Shown piece after piece: positions 22,100 to 36,211 of a DNA stretch of 38,507 nucleotides. The notes below the pieces were generated by a model. The model saw only the letters and a program-made list of their open reading frames with translations. It ran no database searches and was not told the origin of the DNA. Source of the DNA: Mangrovimonas sp. (GTDB lineage Bacteria; Bacteroidota; Bacteroidia; Flavobacteriales; Flavobacteriaceae); the NCBI GenBank assembly GCA_020435705.1, contig JAGQZG010000003.1, positions 1-38,507 of the forward strand. Direction: 5' to 3'. Every line of letters starts with the position of its first letter. The stretch's first letter is position 1. Both the position numbers and the translations under genes were made by a program.

Positions 22100-23146
22100 A
22101 TGAATAAAGACGCAAAAATATATATTGCAGGACATAGGGGTCTTGTGGGGAGCGCTATTTTAGAGAACCTTAAAAGCAAAGGGTACACAAATCTAGTTAC
22201 AAGAACACATAAAGAACTTGATTTAACAGATCAGGTTCAAGTTGCCGCCTTTTTTGCCAAGGAGAAACCTGAATATGTTTTTTTGGCAGCGGCCAAAGTT
22301 GGCGGCATTGTGGCAAATAATGTTTACCGTGCAGATTTCATTTATGAAAATCTGATGATTCAAAACAATGTAATTCACAACAGCTACTTAAATGATGTAA
22401 AAAAACTTCTTTTCTTGGGGAGTACCTGTATTTATCCTAAAAATTCTGCTCAGCCAATGAAAGAAGACTATCTTCTTACGGATACGTTGGAATATACAAA
22501 TGAACCCTATGCCATAGCTAAAATTTCTGGAATAAAAATGTGCGAAAGCTATAACCTACAGTATGGGACTAATTTTATTTCAGTCATGCCCACAAACCTT
22601 TACGGGCCCAATGATAATTTCGACCTAGAAAAATCACATGTTTTACCGGCATTGATTAGAAAAATTCATTTAGCCAAATTGCTTTCTGAATCCAACTACA
22701 GTTTAATTTTGAAAGATACAGGTCACGAAACTATTGAAGAAGCTAAAGCCTATCTTTCAAGTTTTGGTGTTTCCGAAAGCAGTGTAGAAATTTGGGGCTC
22801 CGGGAAACCTAAAAGAGAGTTTCTTTGGTCCGAAGATATGGCCGATGCCTGTGTTTACATTATGGAAAATAGGGACTTTAAAGATACTTTTGATAAAGAA
22901 GCCAAAGAAATTAGAAATACTCATATTAACATTGGTACAGGTAAAGAAATCTCTATAAAAGAATTGGCCCAAGTTATTAAACATGTTGTTGGATTTAAGG
23001 GAGAATTGATCTTCAATCCTCAAAGGCCTGATGGCACTATGAGAAAATTAACCGATGTTAGCAAACTGAACGATTTAGGTTGGAAGCATAAAGTTGAACT
23101 CGAAGATGGAATAAAAAGAGTTTATGAATGGTACAGAAATAAGTAA
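22100..23146 (+). CDS. fcl: GDP-L-fucose synthase
   Basis: A 348-residue epimerase/reductase: [15 protein letters not shown] binds [22 protein letters not shown] contains the conserved serine and cysteine, [13 protein letters not shown] the YxxxK pair, and [24 protein letters not shown] is family specific. An insertion of about 40 residues at about 200-235 ([19 protein letters not shown]) is present, as often seen in Bacteroidota homologues. It performs the 3,5-epimerisation and reduction that give GDP-L-fucose. It starts five bases after gmd and overlaps cysQ by 23 bases. Confidence 0.95.
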
Positions 23147-23933
23147 GCAACTTGAACTTGCCATAACCGCTTCGCTCAAAGCGGGTAAAGCGATCATGGA
23201 AGTATACGATTCAACTTTTGAAGTTGAATACAAAGACGATAATTCACCGCTTACCCTAGCCGATAAAAAATCAAATGATATAATTAATACGTTCCTCAAG
23301 CCTACAGAAATTCCAATTATTTCAGAGGAAAACAAGCAAATAGAGTTTGAGGTTAGAAGGCATTGGAAATTTTGTTGGATTGTTGATCCCGTTGATGGGA
23401 CTAAGGAATTTATAAAACGCAACGGTGAATTTACGGTTAACATAGCGCTTGTAAAAGAAGGCAAGCCTCTTTTAGGAGTAATCTATGTTCCCTCTGAAAA
23501 AACACTTTATTTTGCCAATGTTCTCCAAGAACTGGCCTATAAATCTGAATTGAAAGATCATGAGACACCTTATGAGGTTATCATGCAAAAGGCAAAAAAA
23601 ATGACCCCTAAAGCATCTAGCTCAAATCTTGTTGAGGTAGTAGGTAGCCGTTCCCACATGAGCCAAGAAACACTAGATTATATTGATAAGGTAAAACAGC
23701 TTGGAAAAGAGGTTGAGATTGTTTCTAAAGGAAGCTCTCTCAAGTTTTGTCTTGTTGCCGAAGGGAAAGCCGATGTGTATCCCCGTTTTGCCCCTACCAT
23801 GGAATGGGATACGGCTGCTGGACAAGCGATTTGTAATGCGGTGGGTTTAAAAGTAACATCCAATGAAACCAAGGGGCCTCTTGAGTACAATAAAGAAGAC
23901 TTACTAAATCCCTGGTTTTTGGTTTCCAAATAA
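23124..23933 (+). CDS. cysQ: 3'(2'),5'-bisphosphate nucleotidase
   Basis: A 269-residue inositol-monophosphatase-like phosphatase. The metal-binding motifs are ISEENK (about residues 65-70), [15 protein letters not shown] (about 88-102) and [13 protein letters not shown] near the C-terminus, all intact and of CysQ type. It hydrolyses 3'-phosphoadenosine 5'-phosphate, the by-product of PAPS use, to AMP. It starts inside the end of fcl (23-base overlap), so the sulfate-activation genes are in the same transcript as GDP-fucose synthesis. Confidence 0.94.
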
Positions 23934-24350
23934 ATGAAAGACAACTCGCATAAGAGACATATAGCCAAAGCCATTACATGGAGAATGGTTGGTACAATTG
24001 ATACCATGATTCTCTCATGGATAATATCGGGCGATCCGTTTATGGGCATTAAAATTGGATTTGCCGAGGTTGTTACTAAAATGGGATTATATTACTTACA
24101 CGAGAGGCTTTGGTATAGAACAAGGTTTGAGAACAGTAACAAAAGACATTTGTTCAAGACCATTACATGGCGTATCTTAGGAACATTAGACACAATTACA
24201 TTAGCTTGGATTATTACGGGCAAACCTTTAACAGGATTAAAAATTGGCCTTGCTGAAGTAATCACAAAAATGATCCTGTACTATTTTCATGAAAGGATTT
24301 GGTACTCAGTAGATTTTGGATTAGATAAAAGAAAAAAGAGAACACCTTGA
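23934..24350 (+). CDS. DUF2061 membrane protein with two tandem copies of the domain
   Basis: A 138-residue protein made of two similar units. Unit 1 (about residues 7-62) reads KRHIAKAITWRMVGTIDTMILSWI and ends in HERLWY; unit 2 (about 70-128) reads KRHLFKTITWRILGTLDTITLAWI and ends in HERIWY. Each unit has one or two hydrophobic helices (LSWIISG, GFAEVVTKMGLYYL). DUF2061 has no established role, but it often occurs between sulfate-activation genes in Bacteroidota and proteobacteria. Here it lies with no gap after cysQ and overlaps cysC by four bases. A role in sulfate transport or as a membrane scaffold is only a guess. Confidence 0.85.
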   Translation: MKDNSHKRHIAKAITWRMVGTIDTMILSWIISGDPFMGIKIGFAEVVTKMGLYYLHERLWYRTRFENSNKRHLFKTITWRILGTLDTITLAWIITGKPLTGLKIGLAEVITKMILYYFHERIWYSVDFGLDKRKKRTP

Positions 24351-24949
24351 AAAGCCACATCACGCCTCATAATTACAACATCACCAGAAGTGACAGAAGA
24401 CATAGAAACAAGCACAATTCGTTTCTAATTTGGTTTACGGGGCTGTCAGGATCTGGGAAGTCTACCATTGCAAATCTAGTTGAAAAAGAGCTTTTTAAAA
24501 ACGGAATAAACACCTATATTTTGGATGGAGATAATGTGAGAAACGGCATTAACAAAGACCTCACGTTTTCCCCTGAAGATAGAACAGAAAACATTCGCCG
24601 AATAGCAGAAGTGGCCAATTTGTTTATAGATTCAGGAACAGTCGTTTTGGCCGCCTTTGTTTCTCCCTACAAAAAAGACCGTGAGAACATTAAGAATATC
24701 GTTAAAGATGTTAATTTTGTTGAGGTTTTCGTTAACACAAGTATTGAGGAGTGTGAAAAACGAGACATAAAAGGGCTCTACAAAAAAGCCCGTGCAGGTG
24801 AAATCTCGAACATGACAGGAATTTCGGCACCATATGAAGCTCCTGAGAATCCGGATGTAGAGATACAAACCGAAAAGGAAAGCATTGAAGATTCAGTACA
24901 AAAGGTATTGCATTATATAACCCCCAAGCTCCAACTCAAGTATGAGTAA
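24347..24949 (+). CDS. cysC: adenylylsulfate kinase
   Basis: A 200-residue kinase starting at a TTG that overlaps the previous stop (TTGA); no ATG lies before the conserved N-terminus HNYNITRSDR, which supports the TTG. The P-loop is FTGLSGSGKSTIAN, followed by ILDGDNVRNGINKDLTFSPEDRTENIRR, the APS-binding segment, and FVSPYKKDRENI. It phosphorylates adenosine 5'-phosphosulfate to PAPS, the donor used by sulfotransferases and by PAPS reductases. All catalytic motifs are intact. Its separate presence next to cysDN shows the locus can make PAPS. Confidence 0.94.
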   Translation: MKSHITPHNYNITRSDRRHRNKHNSFLIWFTGLSGSGKSTIANLVEKELFKNGINTYILDGDNVRNGINKDLTFSPEDRTENIRRIAEVANLFIDSGTVVLAAFVSPYKKDRENIKNIVKDVNFVEVFVNTSIEECEKRDIKGLYKKARAGEISNMTGISAPYEAPENPDVEIQTEKESIEDSVQKVLHYITPKLQLKYE

Positions 24950-25847
24950 ATATTATTTAAATTATCTTGACGAATTAGAGAGCGAAGCTATCTATGTGCT
25001 ACGCGAAGTTTGGGCTCAATTTCAGAACCCTGTTATTCTTTTTTCAGGAGGCAAAGACTCTATTGTAGTCACCCATTTGGCAAGAAAAGCATTTTACCCT
25101 TGCAAAATACCGTTTGCACTCATGCATGTTGATACAGGGCACAATTTCCCAGAGACCATCCAATTCCGGGATGATTTGGTCAAGGAATTGGGCGTAAAGC
25201 TTATTGTGGGCTCTGTACAAAAATCAATAGATCAAGGAAGAGTGGCCGAAGAAAGGGGCAAAAACGCAACCCGAAATGCACTTCAAACAACCACATTGCT
25301 AGATGCCATTGAAGAACACCGGGTTGACTGTGCCATTGGGGGCGGAAGGCGTGATGAAGAAAAGGCAAGGGCCAAAGAACGTTTTTTTTCACATAGGGAC
25401 GATTTTGGGCAATGGGATCCAAAAAATCAGCGTCCTGAATTGTGGAACCTTTTTAACGGTAAACATTTTGAAGGCGAACATTTTAGAGCGTTTCCAATTA
25501 GCAATTGGACCGAAATGGATGTTTGGAACTATATTAAAAAAGAAACTATCAGTATTCCATCATTGTATTTTGCCCATCAAAGAGAGGTGGTGTGGAGACA
25601 AAATTCCTGGATTCCCAATTCTGAGTTTTTGAAACTTGAAGAGAATGAGGAAATTCATCTTAAAAAAATACGTTTTAGAACTCTGGGCGATATTACCATT
25701 ACAGGAGGCATTGAAAGCGACGCGGACACAGTAGAAAAAATAGCCTTGGAAGTGTCTGCCATGCGCCAAACGGAAAGAGGAAACAGAAGTGACGATAAAC
25801 GTTCTGAAACTTCAATGGAAGACAGGAAGAGACAAGGCTATTTTTAA
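24942..25847 (+). CDS. cysD: sulfate adenylyltransferase subunit 2
   Basis: A 301-residue PP-loop ATP pyrophosphatase. The PP-loop SGGKDSIVVTHLA is near residue 35, MHVDTGHNFPETI follows, and GGGRRDEEKARAKER and QWDPKNQRPELW are diagnostic of CysD. The C-terminus ends SDDKRSETSMEDRKRQGYF, as in complete homologues. It forms APS from sulfate and ATP together with the CysN GTPase. It overlaps cysC by eight bases. Confidence 0.96.
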   Translation: MSKYYLNYLDELESEAIYVLREVWAQFQNPVILFSGGKDSIVVTHLARKAFYPCKIPFALMHVDTGHNFPETIQFRDDLVKELGVKLIVGSVQKSIDQGRVAEERGKNATRNALQTTTLLDAIEEHRVDCAIGGGRRDEEKARAKERFFSHRDDFGQWDPKNQRPELWNLFNGKHFEGEHFRAFPISNWTEMDVWNYIKKETISIPSLYFAHQREVVWRQNSWIPNSEFLKLEENEEIHLKKIRFRTLGDITITGGIESDADTVEKIALEVSAMRQTERGNRSDDKRSETSMEDRKRQGYF

Positions 25848-25861
25848 TAAATTTTAGAACC

Positions 25862-25880
25862 GTTGGAGCAACGCTTCAAC
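25862..25880 (+). other. hairpin in the cysD-cysN gap
   Basis: GTTGGAGC and GCTTCAAC form an eight-pair stem with one G-T pair around an AAC loop, inside the 47-base gap. There is no T-run after it, so it is not a standard terminator; it may stabilise or process the mRNA between the two cistrons, or mean nothing. Confidence 0.4.
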
Positions 25881-25894
25881 ATTTCACTCAAATA

Positions 25895-27151
25895 ATGTTA
25901 GATAATAATCAACTATTACGATTTACTACAGCAGGAAGTGTTGATGATGGTAAGAGCACCCTTATAGGCCGGTTACTTTATGATTCAAAATCAATATTCG
26001 AGGATCAGCTTGAAGCAGTTGAAAATACCAGTAAACGTAAAGGACATGAAGGCGTAGACTTGGCTCTTTTTACCGACGGATTAAGAGATGAAAGAGAGCA
26101 AGGAATCACCATTGATGTTGCCTATAGATATTTTACGACCCCCAAGCGAAAATTTATAATTGCTGATACGCCTGGACACATTCAATATACCAGAAACATG
26201 GTAACAGGAGCGTCAACGGCCAATGCGGCTATCATTTTGGTTGATGCCAGACATGGTGTGATTGAACAAACTAAAAGGCATTCATTTATAGCATCATTGC
26301 TTCAAATTCCGCACGTAATTGTGTGCATCAACAAAATGGATTTGGTTGACTATTCTGAAGAAGCTTTTATCAAAGTAATTGAGAAATACGAAGAATTTTC
26401 ATCAAAAATGCTGGTTAAAGATGTGAGATTCATTCCCATAAGTGCGTTGAATGGTGATAATGTTGTAAATAGGTCTACCAACATGGATTGGTACCAGGGA
26501 GCCCCGCTTTTGCATACGTTAGAAACGCTGCACATAAGCAGTGATTACAATAAAGTTGATGCGCGTTTCCCTGTTCAAACCATTTTAAGGCCGCAAAGTG
26601 ATGATTCAAATAGAGATTATAGAGGCTATGCTGGCCGAGTTGCTAGTGGCATTTTTAGGCCAGGAGATGAGGTTACAATTATGCCTTCCGGATTTAATTC
26701 CAGAATTAAAAGCATTGACACCTTTGAAGGTTCAGTTGAACAAGCCTTTGCACCTATGTCTGTTTCCATTGTTTTAGAAGATGATATCGATATAAGCCGC
26801 GGTGATATGATTGTGCGGCCCAATAACAAACCGGAAGCTTTACAGGATATAGAAGTCATGCTTTGCTGGCTCCACAACAAACCCGCAAGACCAAGAGCAA
26901 AATACAGCATTCGTCATACAACCAATGAACAAACGGCAATGATTCAAGAAGTTATATATAAAATTGACATTGATTCGTTAGAAAGAAATCATGAAGACAA
27001 AGAACTTGGCATGAACGATATATGCAAAGTGAAAATAAGAACAACCAAACCTTTAATGATAGATTCCTATCGTGAAAATAGAGCTACAGGAAGTATTATC
27101 TTGATTGACAATACAACCAATGAAACCGTAGCAGCAGGAATGATAGTATAA
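25895..27151 (+). CDS. cysN: sulfate adenylyltransferase subunit 1 (GTPase)
   Basis: A 418-residue EF-Tu-like GTPase. G1 is GSVDDGKSTLIGRLL (about residues 14-28), then ERGITIDVAYRYF-type switch (EREQGITIDVAYRYF), G3 DTPGHIQYTRNM and G4 INKMDLVDYS. Beta-barrel domains follow (VQTILRPQ, GRVASGIFRPGDEVTIMPSG). Length is right for the stand-alone CysN without a fused APS kinase, which agrees with the separate cysC. GTP hydrolysis drives APS synthesis by CysD. Cotranscription with cysD is likely despite the 47-base hairpin-containing gap. Confidence 0.95.
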   Translation: MLDNNQLLRFTTAGSVDDGKSTLIGRLLYDSKSIFEDQLEAVENTSKRKGHEGVDLALFTDGLRDEREQGITIDVAYRYFTTPKRKFIIADTPGHIQYTRNMVTGASTANAAIILVDARHGVIEQTKRHSFIASLLQIPHVIVCINKMDLVDYSEEAFIKVIEKYEEFSSKMLVKDVRFIPISALNGDNVVNRSTNMDWYQGAPLLHTLETLHISSDYNKVDARFPVQTILRPQSDDSNRDYRGYAGRVASGIFRPGDEVTIMPSGFNSRIKSIDTFEGSVEQAFAPMSVSIVLEDDIDISRGDMIVRPNNKPEALQDIEVMLCWLHNKPARPRAKYSIRHTTNEQTAMIQEVIYKIDIDSLERNHEDKELGMNDICKVKIRTTKPLMIDSYRENRATGSIILIDNTTNETVAAGMIV

Positions 27152-27175: not shown

Positions 27176-27814
27176 ATGAAAAAAACAACCTTACTCCTTG
27201 CGTTATTAATGGTTACTTTTTCTTGTAAGAATGAAAAAAAGGCTGAAGAAAAAGTTGATCAACCAGAAGCCCCGAAAGAAAAACAGTATGAACTTGTTAA
27301 AAAGTTTGATGCTCGAGACATGCTTATTTGGACCAAAACAAGAATTGGTTGCGAGCAAACCACCGAAGTTCAATTTAGTGAACTACCGTACAAACTATCT
27401 AGAGAAACCCAAACCGAATCCTCATTTCAATCTACGAACCTGATACCGGTTACTTATGCCAATAATTACAAAGTTAGTGTTATAGCAAAAAAAGGATCAA
27501 GCAGTTTCTTTGGGTTAAGAATATCAGGAGCTTATCCGGATAGAGTAGATGCCGTTTTCGATTTAGAAAAAGGAGAGGTAAAAGGAGTTAAAAAGGGTCA
27601 AGATTTTGAAAATGAAGACGCTTCAATTGAAGCACTTGGCGATGGCTGGTATAAATGCAGTGTCTCTGCCAATGTGAGTGCAGACAATATCCGGATTCTA
27701 TTTGGCCCAACCGCTGCGGAAAAAGAGATACTTGGTTGGGAAGGCAAAGTAGAACAAGAAAGTTCAGTTTACTTTATACCTTCCAGTCTTACATTTGAGA
27801 AAGAAGTGAATTAA
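27176..27814 (+). CDS. small lipoprotein with a carbohydrate-binding-like domain
   Basis: A 212-residue protein with a lipobox TFSC (Cys17) and a Lys/Glu-rich linker (NEKKAEEKVDQPEAPKEK). The remainder (about residues 45-205) has the pattern YKVSVIAKKGSSSFFGLRI, then VFDLEKGEVKG, then SIEALGDGWYKCSVS, which resembles the beta-sandwich domain found in phage head-spike and tail proteins and in some carbohydrate-binding modules (the GWY-C-S motif is typical). Function unknown; possibly a surface lipoprotein that binds the polymer made by this locus. Its last 26 codons are repeated in the next ORF with about 70 percent base identity. I recognise the domain type but cannot name a family with certainty. 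Confidence 0.65.
   Translation: MKKTTLLLALLMVTFSCKNEKKAEEKVDQPEAPKEKQYELVKKFDARDMLIWTKTRIGCEQTTEVQFSELPYKLSRETQTESSFQSTNLIPVTYANNYKVSVIAKKGSSSFFGLRISGAYPDRVDAVFDLEKGEVKGVKKGQDFENEDASIEALGDGWYKCSVSANVSADNIRILFGPTAAEKEILGWEGKVEQESSVYFIPSSLTFEKEVN
27734..27814 (+). repeat. 81-base 3'-end repeat, copy 1 (in the lipoprotein gene)
   Basis: The last 26 codons and stop of the lipoprotein gene. It aligns without gaps to 27981-28061, identical at about 56 of 81 bases by hand count, with the first 11 bases except one identical in sequence (GGTTGGGAAGG). Confidence 0.8.
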
Positions 27815-27857: not shown

Positions 27858-28061
27858 ATGCTCTTTAACTCCATAGACTTTGCCATCTTTTTTCCTATAG
27901 TTTTTGTGTTGTATTGGTTGGTTTCCAAAAACCTCATTCTTCGCAATGTCTTGATTTTAGTATCAAGTTACGTGTTCTATGGTTGGGAAGGAAAAACATC
28001 GCAAAAAACAGAAGTTTATATTATTCCTTCAAGTCTCACACTTGAAGAAGTCATTCAATAA
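27858..28061 (+). pseudogene. chimeric remnant: MBOAT acyltransferase 5' end fused to a lipoprotein 3' end
   Basis: An open frame of 67 codons. Residues 1-41, MLFNSIDFAIFFPIVFVLYW and on to SSYVFYG, match the N-terminus of membrane-bound O-acyltransferases (AlgI-like, normally about 470 residues). From codon 42 the sequence switches to GWEGKTSQKTEVYIIPSSLT and resembles the last 26 residues of the preceding lipoprotein (GWEGKVEQESSVYFIPSSLT). The switch occurs at TATGGTTGGG, where MBOAT proteins usually read YGWWD, so a short shared sequence coding GW could have mediated a deletion. The best reading is that an MBOAT gene and a paralogue of the lipoprotein gene were joined by an internal deletion that removed most of both. 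Whether the 67-residue product is made is unknown. Confidence 0.7.
27981..28061 (+). repeat. 81-base 3'-end repeat, copy 2 (in the chimeric remnant)
   Basis: Gapless partner of 27734-27814; same length, same frame and same stop codon, about 70 percent identical. The divergence shows it derives from a paralogue and not from a fresh duplication of the neighbour. Confidence 0.8.
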
Positions 28062-28104: not shown

Positions 28105-29658
28105 ATGATAAATAACACAAAAATATTAGACTGCACACTCAGGGACGGCGGGTATTATACCAATTGGGACTTTGATAGAGAGTTGGTTGCAGAGTATTGT
28201 AAGTTAATGGAAGAGCTTCCGGTAGACTATGTTGAGGTTGGCTACAGAAGCATTCCTTTGGGAGGCTATTTGGGCGAATACTTTTACTGCCCAGAATATG
28301 TCCTTAAAGAGCTTAAAAGTCTTATGCCTACTAAGAAGTTGGTAATCATACTTAACGAAAAAGACATAAGGGTAGAGCATTTGGACAACCTGTTAACACC
28401 TTGCAAGCCTTATATTGCCATGGTGAGAATTGCGATTGATCCAAAGAATTTTGATCGAGCCATAGGTTTGGCCAAAGGAATTAAGGCCATGGGCTTTGAA
28501 GTTGGGTTTAATGTTATGTACATGTCCAATTGGCGGGATGATCAAGCATTTTTAGACCTTCTTGAAGGAATGGAAGACACCATAGATTATTTCTACATGG
28601 TTGATTCCTTTGGAGGCGTAACGCTTAACGATGTTAAAGAGATAACAGCACTAGTAAAAACCAAAACAACGGTTCCGTTAGGGTTTCATGGGCATAATAA
28701 TTTGGAAATGGCCTTGATAAATACGTTGACCGCTGTTGAAGAAGGTTGTCAAATTGTAGATGGAACCATAACTGGAATGGGAAGAGGCGCTGGTAATTTA
28801 AGAACCGAATTACTGTTAACCTACCTAGATAGCATCAACACAAATCTAAACCTTAATTTTACCCAATTGAGTAACGTGGTTTCCTCTTTTGAAAAATTAA
28901 AAAGTGAATACAACTGGGGTACCAATTTACCTTATATGTTTTCAGGGGCGCATTCATTACCACAAAAGCAAGTAATGGAATGGGTAGGAATGAATAGATT
29001 CCCCATAAGCAGCATCCTCAATGCATTGAACAATCAAAAAGCCGATATTAAGGATAATGTTAAGTTACCTGTCTTGGAAAAAGGCAAGGGGTTTAAAAAA
29101 GCTATTATTTTGGGTGGTGGTAAATCGGCTAAGAAACACGTTCAAGCTATCAAAAAGCTATTAGAGACTGATGGAGATACATTCCTGATTCATGCAGGCG
29201 TTAGAAATGTTTCTGATTACATAGATATTAACTGTATTCAGTATTATACACTTGTAGGCTTTGAGAGTGAAAAGTTATTGAGCCAAATCAAGACGTTTTC
29301 CACTCAACAACAAACCTGCATTTTCCCTCCATTTCCAAGAAAGATGGGCACTATAATTCCTGCCGAGATCCAAAATTTATCAAAGGAAATTGAGGCTATT
29401 GATTTTACAACGTTAGATACCGATTCTCCATTGTCCCTTGCCATACAAGCCGCTTTGGATAATGGTGTTGAAACCATTCTTTTCGCTGGGTTTGATGGAT
29501 ATGATACAACCATAGATCAGGTACAGTTTGTACTCGCTCAGGAGAACCAGAAAATATTTGACGACCTTTCGGAGGTGAAAGAGCTTAAAGCTCTATCAAT
29601 CACACCCACCAAATACAAGAATCTTAACACAACGTCAATTTATAGTTTTCTAGAGTGA
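28105..29658 (+). CDS. DRE-TIM aldolase fused to an alpha/beta C-terminal domain, candidate ulosonate synthase
   Basis: A 517-residue two-domain protein. The N-terminal domain (about 1-310) is an HMG-CoA-lyase-like DRE-TIM barrel: LDCTLRDGG holds the catalytic Arg13 and metal ligand Asp14, GFHGHNN the metal-binding His195 and His197, and GTITGMGRGAGNLRTE the later loop, as in 4-hydroxy-2-oxovalerate aldolase. The C-terminal domain (about 330-517) begins KAIILGGGKSAKKHV and includes DSPLSLAIQAALDNGVETILFAGFDGYD, an arrangement reminiscent of GT42 sialyltransferases and flagellar Maf-type proteins. The next two genes encode a cytidylyltransferase and a HAD phosphatase with four-base overlaps, so the aldolase probably condenses pyruvate with a sugar aldehyde to a 2-ulosonic acid. 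The substrate is inference. Confidence 0.75.
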   Translation: MINNTKILDCTLRDGGYYTNWDFDRELVAEYCKLMEELPVDYVEVGYRSIPLGGYLGEYFYCPEYVLKELKSLMPTKKLVIILNEKDIRVEHLDNLLTPCKPYIAMVRIAIDPKNFDRAIGLAKGIKAMGFEVGFNVMYMSNWRDDQAFLDLLEGMEDTIDYFYMVDSFGGVTLNDVKEITALVKTKTTVPLGFHGHNNLEMALINTLTAVEEGCQIVDGTITGMGRGAGNLRTELLLTYLDSINTNLNLNFTQLSNVVSSFEKLKSEYNWGTNLPYMFSGAHSLPQKQVMEWVGMNRFPISSILNALNNQKADIKDNVKLPVLEKGKGFKKAIILGGGKSAKKHVQAIKKLLETDGDTFLIHAGVRNVSDYIDINCIQYYTLVGFESEKLLSQIKTFSTQQQTCIFPPFPRKMGTIIPAEIQNLSKEIEAIDFTTLDTDSPLSLAIQAALDNGVETILFAGFDGYDTTIDQVQFVLAQENQKIFDDLSEVKELKALSITPTKYKNLNTTSIYSFLE

Positions 29659-30338
29659 TTACAGTTTTTTTACCCTGCCGAGCAGGAAGCGAAAGAGTGC
29701 CTTTAAAAAACACCAAAACATTTGCAGGTGTTGAAGGTGGGTTGGTTAATATCAAGCTAAGAGAACTGCTTAAAATCAAATCGGTTGACACGATTGTGCT
29801 TTCAACAAATGATGAAAAGGTTATTGAAATAGCCAGAGCGTTTAAAAGCGATAAAATAATTATTGATGTTCGTCCCGAGCATCTAGCAACCTCAGCAACT
29901 AGTACCGATGAACTCATCAATTACATTCCCGAAATTATTACTGATGAACATGTCCTTTGGACCCATGTAACGTCTCCTTTTCTTAGTCATGAAATTTATG
30001 ACGAGGCTATTAAGATGTATTTCAACAGCTTGAAAGAAGGATACGATAGCTTAATGTCTGTTAATAAATTGCAGACTTTTTTATGGGATGAAAAAGGGAG
30101 CATTAACTATGACAGGAAGCAAGAAAAATGGCCAAGAACCCAAACACTTCCTAGGCTCTACGAAATAAACAGCGGTATTTTTATTAACTCAATGGGGGGA
30201 TATAAAAAGTTATCCGATAGGATTGGGAATAAACCGTTCTTGTTCGAAACTCATGGCTATGCATCATTTGATATTGATTGGCCTGAAGATTTTGAGCTAG
30301 GTGAATTGATTTATAAATCTTTAAATAAAGATAAATGA
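29655..30338 (+). CDS. acylneuraminate/Kdo-type cytidylyltransferase
   Basis: A 227-residue enzyme starting at GTG, which overlaps the aldolase stop (GTGA); the conserved LPCRAGSERVPLKN (residues 6-19) follows directly, supporting this start. It is the CTP-binding signature of CMP-NeuAc and CMP-nonulosonate synthetases. TDELINYIPEIITDEHVLWTHVTSPFLS and FETHGYASFDIDWPEDFELGE complete the family pattern, with a metal-binding acidic pair in the last motif. It should activate a 2-keto-3-deoxy sugar acid to its CMP form. Placement between an aldolase and a phosphatase indicates that its substrate is the product of those two. Confidence 0.9.
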   Translation: MITVFLPCRAGSERVPLKNTKTFAGVEGGLVNIKLRELLKIKSVDTIVLSTNDEKVIEIARAFKSDKIIIDVRPEHLATSATSTDELINYIPEIITDEHVLWTHVTSPFLSHEIYDEAIKMYFNSLKEGYDSLMSVNKLQTFLWDEKGSINYDRKQEKWPRTQTLPRLYEINSGIFINSMGGYKKLSDRIGNKPFLFETHGYASFDIDWPEDFELGELIYKSLNKDK

Positions 30339-30955
30339 AAACAGTTTTTTGGGACTTTGACGGCGTTATTCTAGACTCAATGAAAGTAAGGGATTATGGC
30401 TTTGAAAAAATATTTGAAAAGTTTTCCCCAGAAAAGGTTCAAAAACTAATACAGTATCACAGAGAAAACGGTGGCTTATCACGGTATGTGAAAATAAAGT
30501 ATTTTTTCAATGAAATTTTGGGGCAGGACATCTCTGAAAGCATGGTTAACCAATATGCTAATGCTTTTTCCTTAATTATGAGAAGAGAGCTTACCAATCC
30601 CGATAACTTGATAGATGAAACTGTAAAATTCATAAAAAACAACTACACAAATTTTAATTTCCATATCGTGTCTGGATCGGATCAAGACGAACTTCGGTTT
30701 TTATGCGAAGAACTTAATTTATCCCATTTCTTTTTAAGCATTCACGGATCTCCCACACCTAAGACGCAGCTTGTAGGAGACATCATGCGTCAAAAAGAGT
30801 ATAATCTTTCCACATCTTGCCTAATAGGCGATTCCAAAAACGATTATGACGCCGCCCAAAGTAATGGCATTGCTTTTTATGGTTACAATAATGAAAAAAT
30901 AAAGGATTTAGGGGTTTTGTACATACAAACGTTTGAAGAGTTTACACTTAGCTGA
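30335..30955 (+). CDS. HAD-family phosphatase
   Basis: A 206-residue phosphatase with motif I FWDFDGVILDS (nucleophile Asp7, acid/base Asp9), a helical cap of the phosphoglycolate-phosphatase type, motif II HIVSGSDQDEL, motif III lysine in SPTPKTQLV, and motif IV CLIGDSKNDYDAA. All catalytic residues are present. It overlaps the cytidylyltransferase gene by four bases (ATGA). By analogy with Kdo and sialic acid routes it may remove the phosphate from the ulosonate phosphate made by the aldolase, before CMP activation; no data fix the substrate. Confidence 0.88.
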   Translation: MKTVFWDFDGVILDSMKVRDYGFEKIFEKFSPEKVQKLIQYHRENGGLSRYVKIKYFFNEILGQDISESMVNQYANAFSLIMRRELTNPDNLIDETVKFIKNNYTNFNFHIVSGSDQDELRFLCEELNLSHFFLSIHGSPTPKTQLVGDIMRQKEYNLSTSCLIGDSKNDYDAAQSNGIAFYGYNNEKIKDLGVLYIQTFEEFTLS

Positions 30956-31032: not shown

Positions 31033-32259
31033 ATGAAGCGGATTTTATATTTTGACAATTGGGACAAAGGGTATCGTAATTTTTTGAGACTAGATTCCAG
31101 GTTTAAAGAGAGGGGTTACGATACGCTCTTGGTTCACACTTCCTCCTGGATTAGAAACGATGTTGAAAAAGAAAAAACCTTACAAGGATTAAAATTCAGA
31201 GATGTAAGTTATTATAGAACTAACCGCATAAAAAAGATAATTAAAAAAGAGGCCCCATCGGCCATAGTTATTCTTAACCTCTCTTTTATTCTTGATAGGG
31301 CTCTTGTGAAGATTTGTAAAGATTTGGGCATTAATCTATACTATCTTGCCCATGGAAAACTTATAACAAGGGAAAGCCAAGTAGTTGTTAAGGACAACAT
31401 GAAGAAATTTGGGAAAAGCAAGCTTTATTCCAAAGTTAAAATGAAAAATATTTATTCCCTCTATAATTATTTCATTGAAATGAAAAGCCTGTCAAAATTC
31501 TTTGGGTTTTTCATCAAGGCCAGTAAGAACTATACACAATTCACTGCATTTCCAAGATACAGCGAAGAATTGGAAGTGCAAAAATCAATGATGTACTATC
31601 CAATAGACAGAGATATCATGATAGATGAGTATGGGTTTCCTCCAGATAATGTTATTGTAGTGGGCAATCCGGAATTAGACGATTTTTTCCACACAAAAAT
31701 TAAAGATAAAAACGAGTTTTGTGCTCAGGATTTGGGACTGGAAAAGCAAAACTATATAGCCTACATAGATGATGGGTTATCTTCAATGCGTAATTGGGAT
31801 ACAAACAAATGGCTTCAGTTTTTAAAAGATATTAACGATGTTTTAAAAAAGCATGAAATGCAAATGGTAATCAAGCTGCACCCAAGGAGGGAATTGGACG
31901 ACGCCTGTATCTCTTTTTTTAAAGATGAGAGCATTGCCTATTTCAAGGACTTGGATTTCAAGAACTACATTTACCATTCACACTTTGTTTTCAGTCATTT
32001 TTCTTCGGTAATTGTGTATGCTTTATTGTTGGATAAAAATGTGAAATCACCTAGATGGGGACTTTCGGTTGGGATAGAAGAAAATTTTCCGCATGATGTT
32101 ATAGATTATTATTATAACAAAGAAGATTTTGAGAATAATCTCTATAATCTCGCAATTAATAAGCCGGCCATTCAAGATTACCTATTGGAAGCAATAGGAA
32201 CTAGCTTTGACGGGAAATGTATAGATAGAATAGTTGATGAAGTTTTAACCGGCTTGTAA
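31033..32259 (+). CDS. GT-B-type transferase with HG, DDG, HP and SS motifs, candidate CMP-sugar or CDP-polyol transferase
   Basis: A 408-residue soluble protein with no membrane segment. Motifs in order: YLAHGKL (His107), VVVGNPELDDFF (about 208-219), YIDDGLSSM (DDG at 246-248), VIKLHPR (His283-Pro284) and FSHFSSVIVYALLLDKNV (Ser324-Ser325). HP and SS motifs are shared by bacterial polysialyltransferases, capsular Kdo transferases and CDP-glycerol transferases (TagF type); the HG and G-P-D pattern leans to the TagF side, the DDG to the sialyltransferase side, although its spacing differs from that in NeuS. Either way the donor is likely CMP- or CDP-linked, which fits the cytidylyltransferase just upstream. 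Exact family and acceptor unknown. Confidence 0.6.
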   Translation: MKRILYFDNWDKGYRNFLRLDSRFKERGYDTLLVHTSSWIRNDVEKEKTLQGLKFRDVSYYRTNRIKKIIKKEAPSAIVILNLSFILDRALVKICKDLGINLYYLAHGKLITRESQVVVKDNMKKFGKSKLYSKVKMKNIYSLYNYFIEMKSLSKFFGFFIKASKNYTQFTAFPRYSEELEVQKSMMYYPIDRDIMIDEYGFPPDNVIVVGNPELDDFFHTKIKDKNEFCAQDLGLEKQNYIAYIDDGLSSMRNWDTNKWLQFLKDINDVLKKHEMQMVIKLHPRRELDDACISFFKDESIAYFKDLDFKNYIYHSHFVFSHFSSVIVYALLLDKNVKSPRWGLSVGIEENFPHDVIDYYYNKEDFENNLYNLAINKPAIQDYLLEAIGTSFDGKCIDRIVDEVLTGL

Positions 32260-33525
32260 ATGGGTAAAGAAAACAAGATTAAGAAAACAAAGTTTTTTTT
32301 AGATTCGGTTGGTTATATTCTTGTTTCTGGCGCCTCCAAAGGGTTTAATTACTTGTTGCTTTTATACTTGGCGGCAGGAGCGTTTTCCAAAGAGTACGTT
32401 ACGATTTTACTATTGCTGTCCCTGGAGCAAATACTTACCATTATACTCCCTTTGAACAACCCTTATATTATCTATTCTAAAAATATTGTAACCTATGAAG
32501 ATATCACGAATAAGCTTATCACCAATTCCTTGATGGTAGTTGGGCTTTATGTGTTCATATTTTTAATTTTTAGAAACAGTATCTATGAGTATTTTGAAAC
32601 AGACTACCTTATTGTATTTGCAAGTATTTTAATAAACATTACGGTAAATTCTTATGCAGTCTATTTATCAAATTATTATAAAGTAATAGAACGGCATAAG
32701 ACGGCTTTTTTGGTTCAGGCCTTGCTCCTTATTTCGTTCATCTCTATTGTTGTCACTATGTTTTTTATTGAAAACAAAGTGTTGGCATTTTTCCTTGGAA
32801 AGGCCATAGGTTTTATTATAATACTTATTTTGTTCAGGCTGCTCAAATTAAACTTCGTTAAGTATAAATTCCTAACGCTTAACTTAACCGAATTAAAATA
32901 TTTTTTCAACCTGTTATCTGTGAGTATTTTGGGATGGGTATCGGGTCTAGGCTTTATGAACATTGCCAAAATCTATTCAACCGATTTAGAGCTGGTAAAA
33001 ATTGGTTATGTATTGAATCTTCTCAACGTATTTTTACTTTTAAGCATTGGAGTCAATTCAGTTTATAACCCTCTAATCAAGAAAAACATTGTTCAGGGCG
33101 ACAGTGAGAAAACCATAAAAATTAAGAACAATACACTCTACATCTACTTAGTTATAGTTCTCCTGAGCTTCATGGCTTATTTTGCTTTAAACTCAATTTT
33201 TAGCGCTAACAGTTATCCAAGAATAAATGAAATTATATCTGTTTTACCTTATGCTATACTAATCTTTTTATTTAGTGTGTTCCAATCGGTAGCTCATCCA
33301 TTTTATTTAACCTACAATAAGTTTAGGACATTCAACGTAATAAACATCTTATCGTACTTATTCTGGGTTTTCATAATTGTTTCCTTATCATTTTTTGGTT
33401 TTAAGGAGTATATTTGGTTTTTAGTGATTATTTATTTCCTTAAGGCTTCAATTGCTTACATTTATGCTAGGATGTCTTTTATGAATACCCATTATCTTAA
33501 ACAAAACAAAGAGACCTTGCAATGA
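32260..33525 (+). CDS. Wzx-type lipid-linked oligosaccharide flippase
   Basis: A 421-residue protein that is almost entirely hydrophobic, with about 12 predicted membrane helices, starting directly after the previous stop codon. The N-terminus FFLDSVGYILVSGASKGFNYLL and the segment AFLVQALLLISFISIVVTMFF match the polysaccharide-synthesis (MOP-superfamily) transporters of the Wzx kind. It should move the undecaprenyl-linked repeat unit across the inner membrane. It overlaps the next gene, a polymerase, by four bases, which is the normal Wzx-Wzy pairing. Sequence similarity in this family is low; the assignment relies on topology and context. Confidence 0.8.
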   Translation: MGKENKIKKTKFFLDSVGYILVSGASKGFNYLLLLYLAAGAFSKEYVTILLLLSLEQILTIILPLNNPYIIYSKNIVTYEDITNKLITNSLMVVGLYVFIFLIFRNSIYEYFETDYLIVFASILINITVNSYAVYLSNYYKVIERHKTAFLVQALLLISFISIVVTMFFIENKVLAFFLGKAIGFIIILILFRLLKLNFVKYKFLTLNLTELKYFFNLLSVSILGWVSGLGFMNIAKIYSTDLELVKIGYVLNLLNVFLLLSIGVNSVYNPLIKKNIVQGDSEKTIKIKNNTLYIYLVIVLLSFMAYFALNSIFSANSYPRINEIISVLPYAILIFLFSVFQSVAHPFYLTYNKFRTFNVINILSYLFWVFIIVSLSFFGFKEYIWFLVIIYFLKASIAYIYARMSFMNTHYLKQNKETLQ

Positions 33526-34934
33526 AGCTAAAAACAGTAGTAACATTTTTATATTTAGTAATTAGCGTTCCTCTTTTTTTATTTGTTGAGATGCAGCCGC
33601 TTGTTTGGCTTTCGTTTTTTGCGAATTTTTTCGTGTTAACTATAATCGTGAACTACCATTTAAATTTTGAGAAGAATTATTCTCCCTTTATGTCCTCGTT
33701 TATAATTTTCACCTATTTGTTTTTTTTGGTTGCTCCTATCATTCAAATAGGAGACATGTCAACTGAAAACCCAATTTTCCCTAATCGATATCCCTATCAT
33801 CCTCAGGAAGTGATTTTCGCAAATGCCATCATATTTTTATTCAATATTGTCTTTTTCCTCTCCTATGTGTTGATGAAAAAAAGAATTTTTAAGATAAGCA
33901 CACAACCTTCAGAGACTTCCAATACCTATACAAAGCCATTGTTTATAGTGACGCTGTTTGTTATTTCAATATTGATTGTTGTTTTAAACTACGATTTCTT
34001 AATTGATGAATTTGAGCGCTCTACTTATGCCAGAACAACAGAATCTGTTGCAAGCTTACTTATTAAAAAGAAAGTGTTGTTTTTAATTCCTTTAGGGGCC
34101 ATAGCAATATGTTACAATTATTTATCCAAGAAGAAAAAATTAACACCCAACTTTTTAACGGTTGCCTTTATTTTGATAGGCTTGGTGGTTTGCCTTTTAA
34201 TTTTAAAAAATCCATTTACAGAGAAGAGAAATGCTTTGGGGCCTATATATATAACGTTACTGTTTATTTTTGGCAACAAGCTGATTAATTCAAATGTGAA
34301 ATTTTTCCTTTTCATGTTCATCTCTATGGTAATTTTATTCCCATTAACCTCTGCAATAACACATGTTGACGCCACTTTTGATCAAGTTTGGGAAAACCCT
34401 CATTTATTGATTGAGTCGTTTGTTCATTCAGGAGGCATTGCCAATGCATTTAATATGCTGCATTACGATGCTTTTGGGAATATTATGGCCACTGCGGATT
34501 ATATTGGGAAAAATGGTTTTTCATTGGGGTTTCAGCTTTTAAGTGCCTTTTTGTTTTTTGTTCCAAGGGGAGTATGGCCTTCTAAACCTATTTCATCGGG
34601 AGAACTCGTGGGAAATTATTTAATAGAAGATTATGGTTTTAGGTACAGTAATTTATCTAACCCATTTGTGTCCGAAGGGTTTTTAAACTATGGAATTCTG
34701 GGGGTTATTGTTTTTGCAATATTATTACCGTATGTGATTCTTAAGTTCTCAAATTGGTTATATTCTGCCGATTATTTGAAAAAGATAATTGCATTTTACT
34801 TAGCGGTACATTTAATGTTTTTGTTAAGAGGCGATTTTACTAATGGCTTTTCTTATTTTATAGGGACATTTTTAGGCGTATATTTTGTTCCTAAATTAGT
34901 GGATAGAATACTTACTTTTTCATTAAAAAAATAA
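33522..34934 (+). CDS. Wzy-type oligosaccharide repeat-unit polymerase
   Basis: A 470-residue membrane protein with about 11-12 predicted helices. A large loop in the second half (about residues 270-360) contains HSGGIANAFNMLHY, GFSLGFQLLSAFLFFVPRGVWPSKP and NPFVSEGFLNYGILG, resembling the periplasmic loop of O-antigen polymerases (the VPR..WPSKP and E-G-x-x-N-x-G pattern is typical of the wzy-like family). It should join repeat units delivered by the flippase encoded just before it (four-base overlap). It is distinct from the next gene, which looks like an O-antigen ligase. Confidence 0.8.
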   Translation: MKLKTVVTFLYLVISVPLFLFVEMQPLVWLSFFANFFVLTIIVNYHLNFEKNYSPFMSSFIIFTYLFFLVAPIIQIGDMSTENPIFPNRYPYHPQEVIFANAIIFLFNIVFFLSYVLMKKRIFKISTQPSETSNTYTKPLFIVTLFVISILIVVLNYDFLIDEFERSTYARTTESVASLLIKKKVLFLIPLGAIAICYNYLSKKKKLTPNFLTVAFILIGLVVCLLILKNPFTEKRNALGPIYITLLFIFGNKLINSNVKFFLFMFISMVILFPLTSAITHVDATFDQVWENPHLLIESFVHSGGIANAFNMLHYDAFGNIMATADYIGKNGFSLGFQLLSAFLFFVPRGVWPSKPISSGELVGNYLIEDYGFRYSNLSNPFVSEGFLNYGILGVIVFAILLPYVILKFSNWLYSADYLKKIIAFYLAVHLMFLLRGDFTNGFSYFIGTFLGVYFVPKLVDRILTFSLKK

Positions 34935-34942
34935 AATTCTTA

Positions 34943-36211
34943 ATGCGTAATTTCAAGCTATACCCAGGGACATTAATTGAAAAACTATCTTGGGGCAGTA
35001 TGCTGTTGTTTTCCATTTCGATCCTATTGCCTGAAAATTATAGGAACATTCCTTTATTTATGTTGCTTTTAACCGCCTTGCTCGGATTAAAAAGCAAAAC
35101 GCCATCCAAGGCCGGACTTAGGATTTTTATTGTTAATGGAATGCTCTATTTAATTTTGGCATTAAGCCTTTTGTACACTGGTGACTTGGCCGATGGGTTT
35201 AAACGAATAACTGTCATGGCCTCTATAGGCATTTTACCATTTGCCTTATACGCCGTTAATGGCAACAAGGTATTATCCAATAAGCGGCTTGAAATGGTTT
35301 TTTACTGGTCTTTTCTAGTATCGGTGGTAATTTTTTATTTAGGTGTTTTTGTTTTCACGTTTTCCAAAGGCTTTTTGAACAGCACAATTTTTGAGCATTT
35401 CACAGAAAGACTAAACTCTACATTGGGTAAGTATTCTTTACACCCTTTGTATGCCTCATTGTATATTTGCATTTCCATTTGTCTTTCAGTCCATGTTTTT
35501 ACCCAATCAACAAAGCGAGCACAAAAACTTTTCTTGATATTGTGCATGTTGTTTTTGACCCTGGTATTATTAATGTTGGCAAGAAAAGGTGCCATTTTTT
35601 TCATGCTTATCCTAGCCATGGCCTATTTTTTTATCAAACTGAGAAAAACGAGATACAGCTACATTTTTGTTGCGACAGCACTCCTGGGATTAATTTTCTC
35701 CTACTATATAGAGCCCATTAGATTAAGATATGTTGAATTTTTTCAGTCATTTTTCACAACGAATGTTTCGGATCCAGGATCTACTTCGTTTAGGCTTAAT
35801 GTTTATAAATGCGCCCTCAAATCAATTTTTGAAAGCCCTATTTTCGGATACGGGCTAGGAGACACTAAGCATATTTTAACTAGTTGCTATGTACAGCAGC
35901 AAAACATGTTTAGCGGATTATATTTTAATTCACACAATCAATTTTTAAGTGTCTGGTTGGCCGCTGGTATTTTTGGATTTTTGGCGTTAGTTTACATGAT
36001 GTACAGCAATATTCAATTAGCATTAAAGAGCAAGAGCTTTTTACACGCATCGGTAATAGTACTTTTTTTAGGTTTTTTGATGATTGAAAATATATTAGAA
36101 AGGCAAGACGGTGTGATACTTTTCTCCTTTTTTATTAATTTCTTTGCATTTAAGAATTTAAAACATAAACCCACTGTTGAAAAAAATACTTATAATCGGG
36201 CCATTTCCTGA
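34943..36211 (+). CDS. O-antigen ligase/polymerase family (Wzy_C) membrane protein
   Basis: A 422-residue protein with about 10-12 predicted helices. The family core is present: TLGKYSLHPLYASLYICI, LMLARKGAIFFMLILAMAYFF, then the large periplasmic loop SFRLNVYKCALKSIFESPIFGYGLGD and FNSHNQFLSVWLAAGIFGFLAL, with the conserved arginine and HNQ histidine of Wzy_C (PF04932) proteins. This family includes WaaL, which attaches O-antigen to lipid A-core, and some polymerases. Because a separate Wzy precedes it, ligation is the more likely role; the two cannot be told apart by sequence alone. The last 35 bases overlap the next gene. Confidence 0.82.
   Translation: MRNFKLYPGTLIEKLSWGSMLLFSISILLPENYRNIPLFMLLLTALLGLKSKTPSKAGLRIFIVNGMLYLILALSLLYTGDLADGFKRITVMASIGILPFALYAVNGNKVLSNKRLEMVFYWSFLVSVVIFYLGVFVFTFSKGFLNSTIFEHFTERLNSTLGKYSLHPLYASLYICISICLSVHVFTQSTKRAQKLFLILCMLFLTLVLLMLARKGAIFFMLILAMAYFFIKLRKTRYSYIFVATALLGLIFSYYIEPIRLRYVEFFQSFFTTNVSDPGSTSFRLNVYKCALKSIFESPIFGYGLGDTKHILTSCYVQQQNMFSGLYFNSHNQFLSVWLAAGIFGFLALVYMMYSNIQLALKSKSFLHASVIVLFLGFLMIENILERQDGVILFSFFINFFAFKNLKHKPTVEKNTYNRAIS

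Follow-up and report, generated by a model that had tools for sequence, protein, structure and literature searches.

To our knowledge, all pathways to ulosonic acids activated with cytidine monophosphate (CMP), namely those for sialic, pseudaminic and legionaminic acids, 2-keto-3-deoxynononic acid (Kdn) and 3-deoxy-D-manno-octulosonic acid (Kdo), form the carbon-carbon bond with a phosphoenolpyruvate (PEP)-dependent synthase of the NeuB or KdsA type. Genome surveys for sialic-type sugars take NeuB as their marker. The present analysis concerns a three-gene cassette, encoding a DRE-TIM aldolase, a cytidylyltransferase and a HAD-family phosphatase, in a stretch of 38,507 nucleotides from Mangrovimonas sp. 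(GenBank assembly GCA_020435705.1, contig JAGQZG010000003.1), referred to here as the window. The cassette shares with the CMP-Kdo pathway (KdsA - KdsC - KdsB) the logic of a synthase, a HAD phosphatase and a cytidylyltransferase, the last being of the KdsB type in 34 of 88 cassettes; it differs in having a DRE-TIM aldolase rather than KdsA, a HAD_2-type phosphatase, and its genes together in a polysaccharide cluster. A NeuA-like cytidylyltransferase and, in relatives, nearby transferases of the POLYST and GT29 types are shared with the NeuB - NeuA and PseI - PseF pathways; unlike these, the cassette contains no NeuB or PseI, and no NeuB could be found in 14 of 50 cassette genomes.

The cassette is probably a dedicated route by which a 3-deoxy-2-ulosonic acid is made and activated with CMP for use in a surface polysaccharide; in this route, a DRE-TIM aldol reaction would take the place of NeuB or KdsA. 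The observations behind this reading are the gene content, its conservation, the absence of the classical synthases from some genomes, fold similarity and conserved motifs. No description of the cassette was found in open-licence papers, and we know of no published account of it.

Domain architecture of the cassette enzymes

The cassette occupies the following positions of the window:

28105-29658, + strand: DRE-TIM aldolase open reading frame (ORF), full fusion protein; from the ORF list, overlapping the cytidylyltransferase ORF
28105..29052, + strand: DRE-TIM (HMGL-like) aldolase domain, residues 1-316; PF00682, PDB 3dxi_A, alignment to 1nvm
29074..29655, + strand: C-terminal domain of the aldolase protein, residues 324-517; predicted fold of the Maf / MptE / CstII / GT29 group
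29655..30338, + strand: NeuA-like cytidylyltransferase with a GTG start; PF02348, RxGSxR loop and DxDWxxDF motif
30335..30955, + strand: HAD-family phosphatase; PF13419, WDFDGV nucleophile motif and GDSKND

The three ORFs lie where a first-pass annotation of the window had placed them, with the four-base overlaps that it reported: GTGA at 29655-29658 between aldolase and cytidylyltransferase, and ATGA at 30335-30338 between cytidylyltransferase and HAD gene. The motifs LDCTLRDGG, HGH and LPCRAGSERVPLKN could be located in the cassette. The aldolase scored 88.2 bits against PF00682 (HMGL-like; gathering score 29), which places it in the DRE-TIM family. That annotation had recognized the family by the LRDGG and HGH motifs, both of which were confirmed; it missed the fusion, as only about residues 1-316 are DRE-TIM. 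The PDB entry 3dxi_A ('putative aldolase') matched residues 5-316 with an E value of 7e-111, and coverage by both PF00682 and 3dxi stops at about residue 316. Thus 3dxi belongs to the same family as the N-terminal domain, but its 320-residue chain corresponds to residues 5-316 only; as far as we know, it has no reported function.

Alignment to 1nvm revealed that R13, D14, H195 and H197 correspond to the essential Arg and the metal ligands of DmpG, and the metal site (D14, H195, H197) is kept in relatives (89 sequences). DmpG and BphI share with the cassette aldolase the DRE-TIM family and the Arg plus Asp-His-His metal site; pyruvate aldolase chemistry would be expected. The cassette enzyme differs from them in its biosynthetic neighbourhood, in a C-terminal part that is another domain, and in a Tyr in place of the catalytic His: the position of the DmpG base His21 is Tyr17 here, and Tyr in at least 97% of the 89 sequences. 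The best named family for the aldolase was 4-hydroxy-2-oxovalerate aldolase, with 99.8 bits against TIGR03217, far below the equivalog cut-off of 286. A catabolic 4-hydroxy-2-oxovalerate aldolase identity was rejected on this cut-off and on the base residue.

The C-terminal domain of about 190 residues is conserved along with the rest of the protein in full-length relatives. Folded alone with AlphaFold2 (86 sequences), it gave a predicted local distance difference test (pLDDT) score of 90.6. The closest solved structure to the model was the Maf glycosyltransferase 5mu5 (VIA Z 15.6, root-mean-square deviation 3.1 over 180 residues; Foldseek E 9.7e-5), followed in VIA by SteA (Z 12.3), the MptE pyrophosphokinase (Z 11.9) and CstII (Z 11.2). 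The CstI and CstII sialyltransferases matched at Z 10-12 and GT29 enzymes more weakly, while PF01973 reached 14.4 bits on this domain against a cut-off of 34.6. Maf and CstII act on CMP-activated nonulosonic acids. The modelled domain resembles both in predicted fold and is unlike both in sequence (identity of about 12%), in its fusion to an aldolase and in that its transferase activity is putative. The fold group also holds pyrophosphokinases, so a transferase function is a suggestion only; as SteA and MptE score similarly to CstII, the modelled fold by itself is no proof of a transferase. Most likely, the fused domain would bind a CMP-sugar or CMP, either for transfer or for control of the aldolase.

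The cytidylyltransferase scored 56.9 bits against PF02348 (CTP_transf_3; cut-off 22.6) and the phosphatase 56.5 bits against PF13419 (HAD_2; cut-off 23.8), in agreement with the identities first proposed for them, a CMP-nonulosonate-type cytidylyltransferase and a HAD phosphatase. Both the PseF model and CMP-Neu5Ac synthetases show weak similarity to the window cytidylyltransferase; a PseF identity was rejected, as TIGR03584 gave 63.8 bits, below its equivalog cut-off of 205.7. Its RxGSxR and DxDWxxDF motifs are kept in 42 N-type (NeuA-like) cassette cytidylyltransferases. In the HAD protein, D7, D9, D166 and D170 and the DxD and GDSxND motifs are conserved (83 sequences).

Conservation of the cassette and exchange of its cytidylyltransferase

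Of 395 genomes sampled from the phylum group, eight others contained full-length relatives. The search gave 179 loci, of which the best 80 were retained, so the sample leans to close relatives; these 80, from named genomes, belonged to Bacteroidota or Balneolota wherever titles were read. Altogether 86 distinct loci were collected, and the 78 with more than 5 kb downstream were used for cassette counts. A cytidylyltransferase lay within 3 kb downstream on the same strand in 78 of 78 loci, starting within 100 bases of the aldolase in 64 of them, and a HAD gene within 4 kb downstream of the aldolase in 73 of 78. This gene order is not due to chance, since relatives belonging to numerous families of Bacteroidota and Balneolota share it. 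An HpcH/HpaI aldolase was inserted directly after the cassette aldolase in 12 loci; most cassettes, including those of the window and of genomes G198 and G123, have no HpcH. The cassette is common to many environmental Bacteroidota and probably makes a sialic-acid-like or Kdo-like surface sugar.

In the cytidylyltransferase tree, 34 loci formed a sister group to KdsB, 42 (including the window) a NeuA-like group, and 12 fell into groups that are mostly HpcH-linked; NeuAs adjacent to NeuB lay apart from all of these. K-type (KdsB-like) cassette enzymes exceeded the cut-off of 255 bits of the KdsB subfamily model NF009905 (300.8 bits at locus L107 and 295.2 at L039), which the NeuA-like enzyme of the window did not reach. 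On the aldolase tree, NeuA-like and KdsB-like cytidylyltransferases replace one another at least 19 times (shuffled mean 36), the closest switch separating aldolases that are 86% identical. That the synthetase is exchanged while the aldolase and HAD genes persist suggests an ulosonic acid as the product of these two, open to activation by either type. The KdsB-type members favour a Kdo-like sugar.

Transferase genes within a few genes of the cassette, counted in 90 loci with profiles grown from members passing Pfam cut-offs, were polysialyltransferase-like POLYST (PF07388) in 22, GT29 (PF00777) in 13 and Capsule_synth (PF05159) in 8. As background, 12 of the 395 sampled genomes had a PF07388 match above the cut-off, and none had such a match to PF00777. 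POLYST lies beside the cassette in the NeuB-less genomes G198, G112, G420, G123 and G431, the G123 member being recognized only by a profile built for this analysis. The guess that a small gene after the HAD gene and a later 340-aa gene would be sialyltransferase-like held in relatives for GT29 and POLYST. Enzymes of GT29 and GT107 move ulosonic acids from CMP donors (PMC13171606). A CMP-ulosonate product is supported by the POLYST-like and GT29 neighbours in relatives, which are assigned by sequence to families using CMP-ulosonic acids.

In the proposed route, the enolate of pyruvate or a similar 2-oxo acid, held on a divalent metal in the DRE-TIM domain, would attack an aldose phosphate, yielding a 3-deoxy-2-ulosonate phosphate; in known pathways this step belongs to PEP-dependent NeuB or KdsA. 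The HAD enzyme would strip the phosphate, as KdsC does for Kdo, and the cytidylyltransferase, repeatedly recruited from NeuA-like and KdsB-like stock, would form the CMP-ulosonate. Transferases of the cluster would then add the ulosonate to a glycan, and the fused C-terminal domain may take part by binding the CMP-sugar, either to transfer it or to exert feedback. More tentatively, a single polypeptide might combine a DRE-TIM pyruvate aldol activity that builds the 3-deoxy-ulosonate with a Maf/CstII-type domain that transfers or senses its CMP form; such an enzyme would join NeuB and KdsA as a third class of ulosonate synthase, one independent of PEP, and would make an undescribed acidic sugar in many Bacteroidota.

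Classical synthases and alternative explanations

The absence of NeuB and KdsA was called from hidden Markov model searches of the assemblies; PF00793, the KdsA test, could miss a divergent KdsA and gave matches above 200 bits in 12 of 12 other genomes tested. Besides the 14 cassette genomes with no NeuB match, one further genome had a match below the cut-off only. The NeuB-less genomes include two single-contig ones, G198 and G112, as well as G420, a record of Pedobacter sp. PAMC26386 titled complete genome. Exactly two PF02348 genes, a KdsB and the cassette one, were found in 10 of the 14, and 16 NeuB-bearing genomes had 3-5 each. Neither PF00793 (KdsA type) nor PF04413 (KdtA) matches could be found in G112, G054 and G123. 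A dedicated PEP-dependent NeuB or KdsA for the cytidylyltransferase, as in the classical pathways, is thus not found in the cassette genomes that lack NeuB and PF00793. G123, whose KdsB-type cassette lacks a neighbouring HpcH and holds the only PF02348 gene of the genome, provides the strongest genetic evidence for formation of the carbon-carbon bond by the cassette aldolase, with the caution that its assembly has 290 contigs at 98% completeness. In G112, two aldolase cassettes (L037 and L038) lie about 20 kb apart and hold the only PF02348 genes of the genome. G420 (locus L128) has PF00793 and KdsB-type matches and no PF04413 (KdtA) match.

As the first-pass annotation had observed, neither NeuB nor KdsA is seen within the 38.5-kb window. 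In the window genome, an assembly of 346 contigs that is 84% complete, a single NeuB lies at the extreme end of contig C307 together with a NeuC-like gene; PF00793 genes occur elsewhere, and the only two PF02348 genes found are a KdsB and the cassette one. The cytidylyltransferase could accordingly serve an ordinary NeuB-made nonulosonic acid or housekeeping Kdo, the aldolase having some other role such as precursor supply or another function of the cluster. This explanation draws on that NeuB and on the lack of a further PF02348 gene to serve it, and is unlikely. NeuB is missing from the 14 genomes named above, KdsA is missing as well from G123 and G112, and the tree keeps NeuB-linked NeuAs apart from the cassette enzymes. 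Tamlana haliotis (G404, locus L060), the nearest relative, carries a NeuA immediately upstream of NeuB, with the cassette on a different contig; because this NeuA occupies the side on which C307 stops, the simplest expectation is that the NeuA missing from the incomplete window genome lies beyond that edge. A NeuB elsewhere in the genome, which the first-pass annotation had counted as evidence against its route, is thus literally present, although the NeuB of the nearest relative is paired with a NeuA next to it. The only POLYST-family match of the window genome is likewise cut at a contig edge (C306, locus L126), and this end and that of C307 (L034) may belong to one broken cluster.

Alternatively, the aldolase may use another donor or acceptor (another 2-oxo acid, or cleavage to an aldehyde), so that the acid is not a 3-deoxy-2-ulosonic acid, or HpcH may make the acid where present. 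The conserved Tyr17 at the position of the DmpG base and the 12 loci with HpcH next to the aldolase, mostly with their own cytidylyltransferase clades, speak for it, as does G139, a genome with HpcH, a NeuA-like gene and POLYST in which no NeuB and no full-length cassette aldolase could be found (the third NeuB-less POLYST genome in the sample). It is nevertheless rather unlikely, since most cassettes have no HpcH and the K-type cytidylyltransferases pass KdsB models, which fits a 3-deoxy-2-ulosonate. The G139 genes (L127, G139:C2:936000-955900) form one cluster together with a SIS-type isomerase recognized by eye, a possible parallel HpcH-based route to an ulosonic acid. Far less probable is a catabolic 4-hydroxy-2-oxovalerate aldolase lying by chance near polysaccharide genes, the other outcome that would have spoken against the proposed route. 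It has the best named family in its favour, but the score falls short of the equivalog cut-off, the base His is Tyr17, the C-terminal domain has another fold, and the aldolase is linked throughout the phylum with a cytidylyltransferase and a HAD gene.

Several points weigh against an aldolase-based ulosonate route. The substitution of Tyr17 for His21 indicates that the mechanism may differ from that of DmpG, and HpcH, a second pyruvate-type aldolase, could form the carbon-carbon bond instead in the 12 loci, which include both G112 copies; G112 is thereby weakened as the cleanest NeuB-less case and yields to G123 and G198. In most genomes, G123 excepted, Kdo made through housekeeping KdsA could in principle be activated by a KdsB-type cassette. 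The value of GT29 as proof of the cassette product is reduced because all 10 GT29 loci with tested genomes also hold NeuB, whose product the GT29 transferase may use. The 408-aa gene downstream of the window cassette is neither GT29 nor POLYST by Pfam, and this candidate transferase of the window is in no CMP-sugar family found. Moreover, all the chemistry of the route, with its substrates, its product and the direction of the aldol reaction, is inferred. The route from aldolase through HAD to CMP activation with no dedicated NeuB, as first suggested, nevertheless draws support from gene content: NeuB-less and some KdsA-less genomes, separate NeuAs, and CMP-ulosonate-type transferases in relatives. 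The Maf-like domain, the KdsB-type cassettes and HpcH in 12 loci had not been foreseen.

Genomic setting and significance

The cassette sits in a polysaccharide cluster, with Wzy-like, O-antigen-ligase-like, group 1 glycosyltransferase and WcaF-type genes on its 3' side and an APS kinase and an inositol-monophosphatase-family gene on its 5' side. The genes that follow it are:

31033..32259, + strand: candidate transferase, 408 aa, GT-B-like guess; Epimerase_2 and BFO_1060 glycosyltransferase matches below cut-off, role inferred
32260..33525, + strand: membrane protein, possible flippase; Wzx-like from position and length only, no Pfam matches
33522..34934, + strand: Wzy-like O-antigen polymerase; PF14296, 29.1 bits (cut-off 26.6)
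34943..36211, + strand: O-antigen ligase/polymerase family protein; PF04932, 68.8 bits
36177..37262, + strand: group 1 glycosyltransferase; PF00534, 70 bits
37259..37813, + strand: WcaF-family acetyltransferase; NF007797, 257.7 bits (cut-off 192)

The candidate transferase recurs in one other locus only, L060. Directly 5' of the cassette, a sulfate-activation block (23124-27151) consists of inositol-phosphatase family/CysQ-like, APS kinase, CysD-like and CysN-like genes. Near-identical gene lengths were observed 5' of the cassette in another Mangrovimonas locus (L055), hinting at a sulfated polysaccharide. A 67-codon ORF (27858-28061) just 5' of the aldolase starts, by eye, like an MBOAT/AlgI-type acyltransferase, has no Pfam matches, and at its end repeats the tail of the lipoprotein gene at 27176-27814 (43% over 49 aa); from its sequence it looks like a deletion or recombination scar.

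If the proposed route is correct, the joining of an aldolase and a sialyltransferase-like domain in one protein would represent a novel enzyme architecture, and the enzyme family of the solved structure 3dxi would gain a role. Surveys based on NeuB would then overlook one class of acidic sugars on the cell surfaces of a major phylum.

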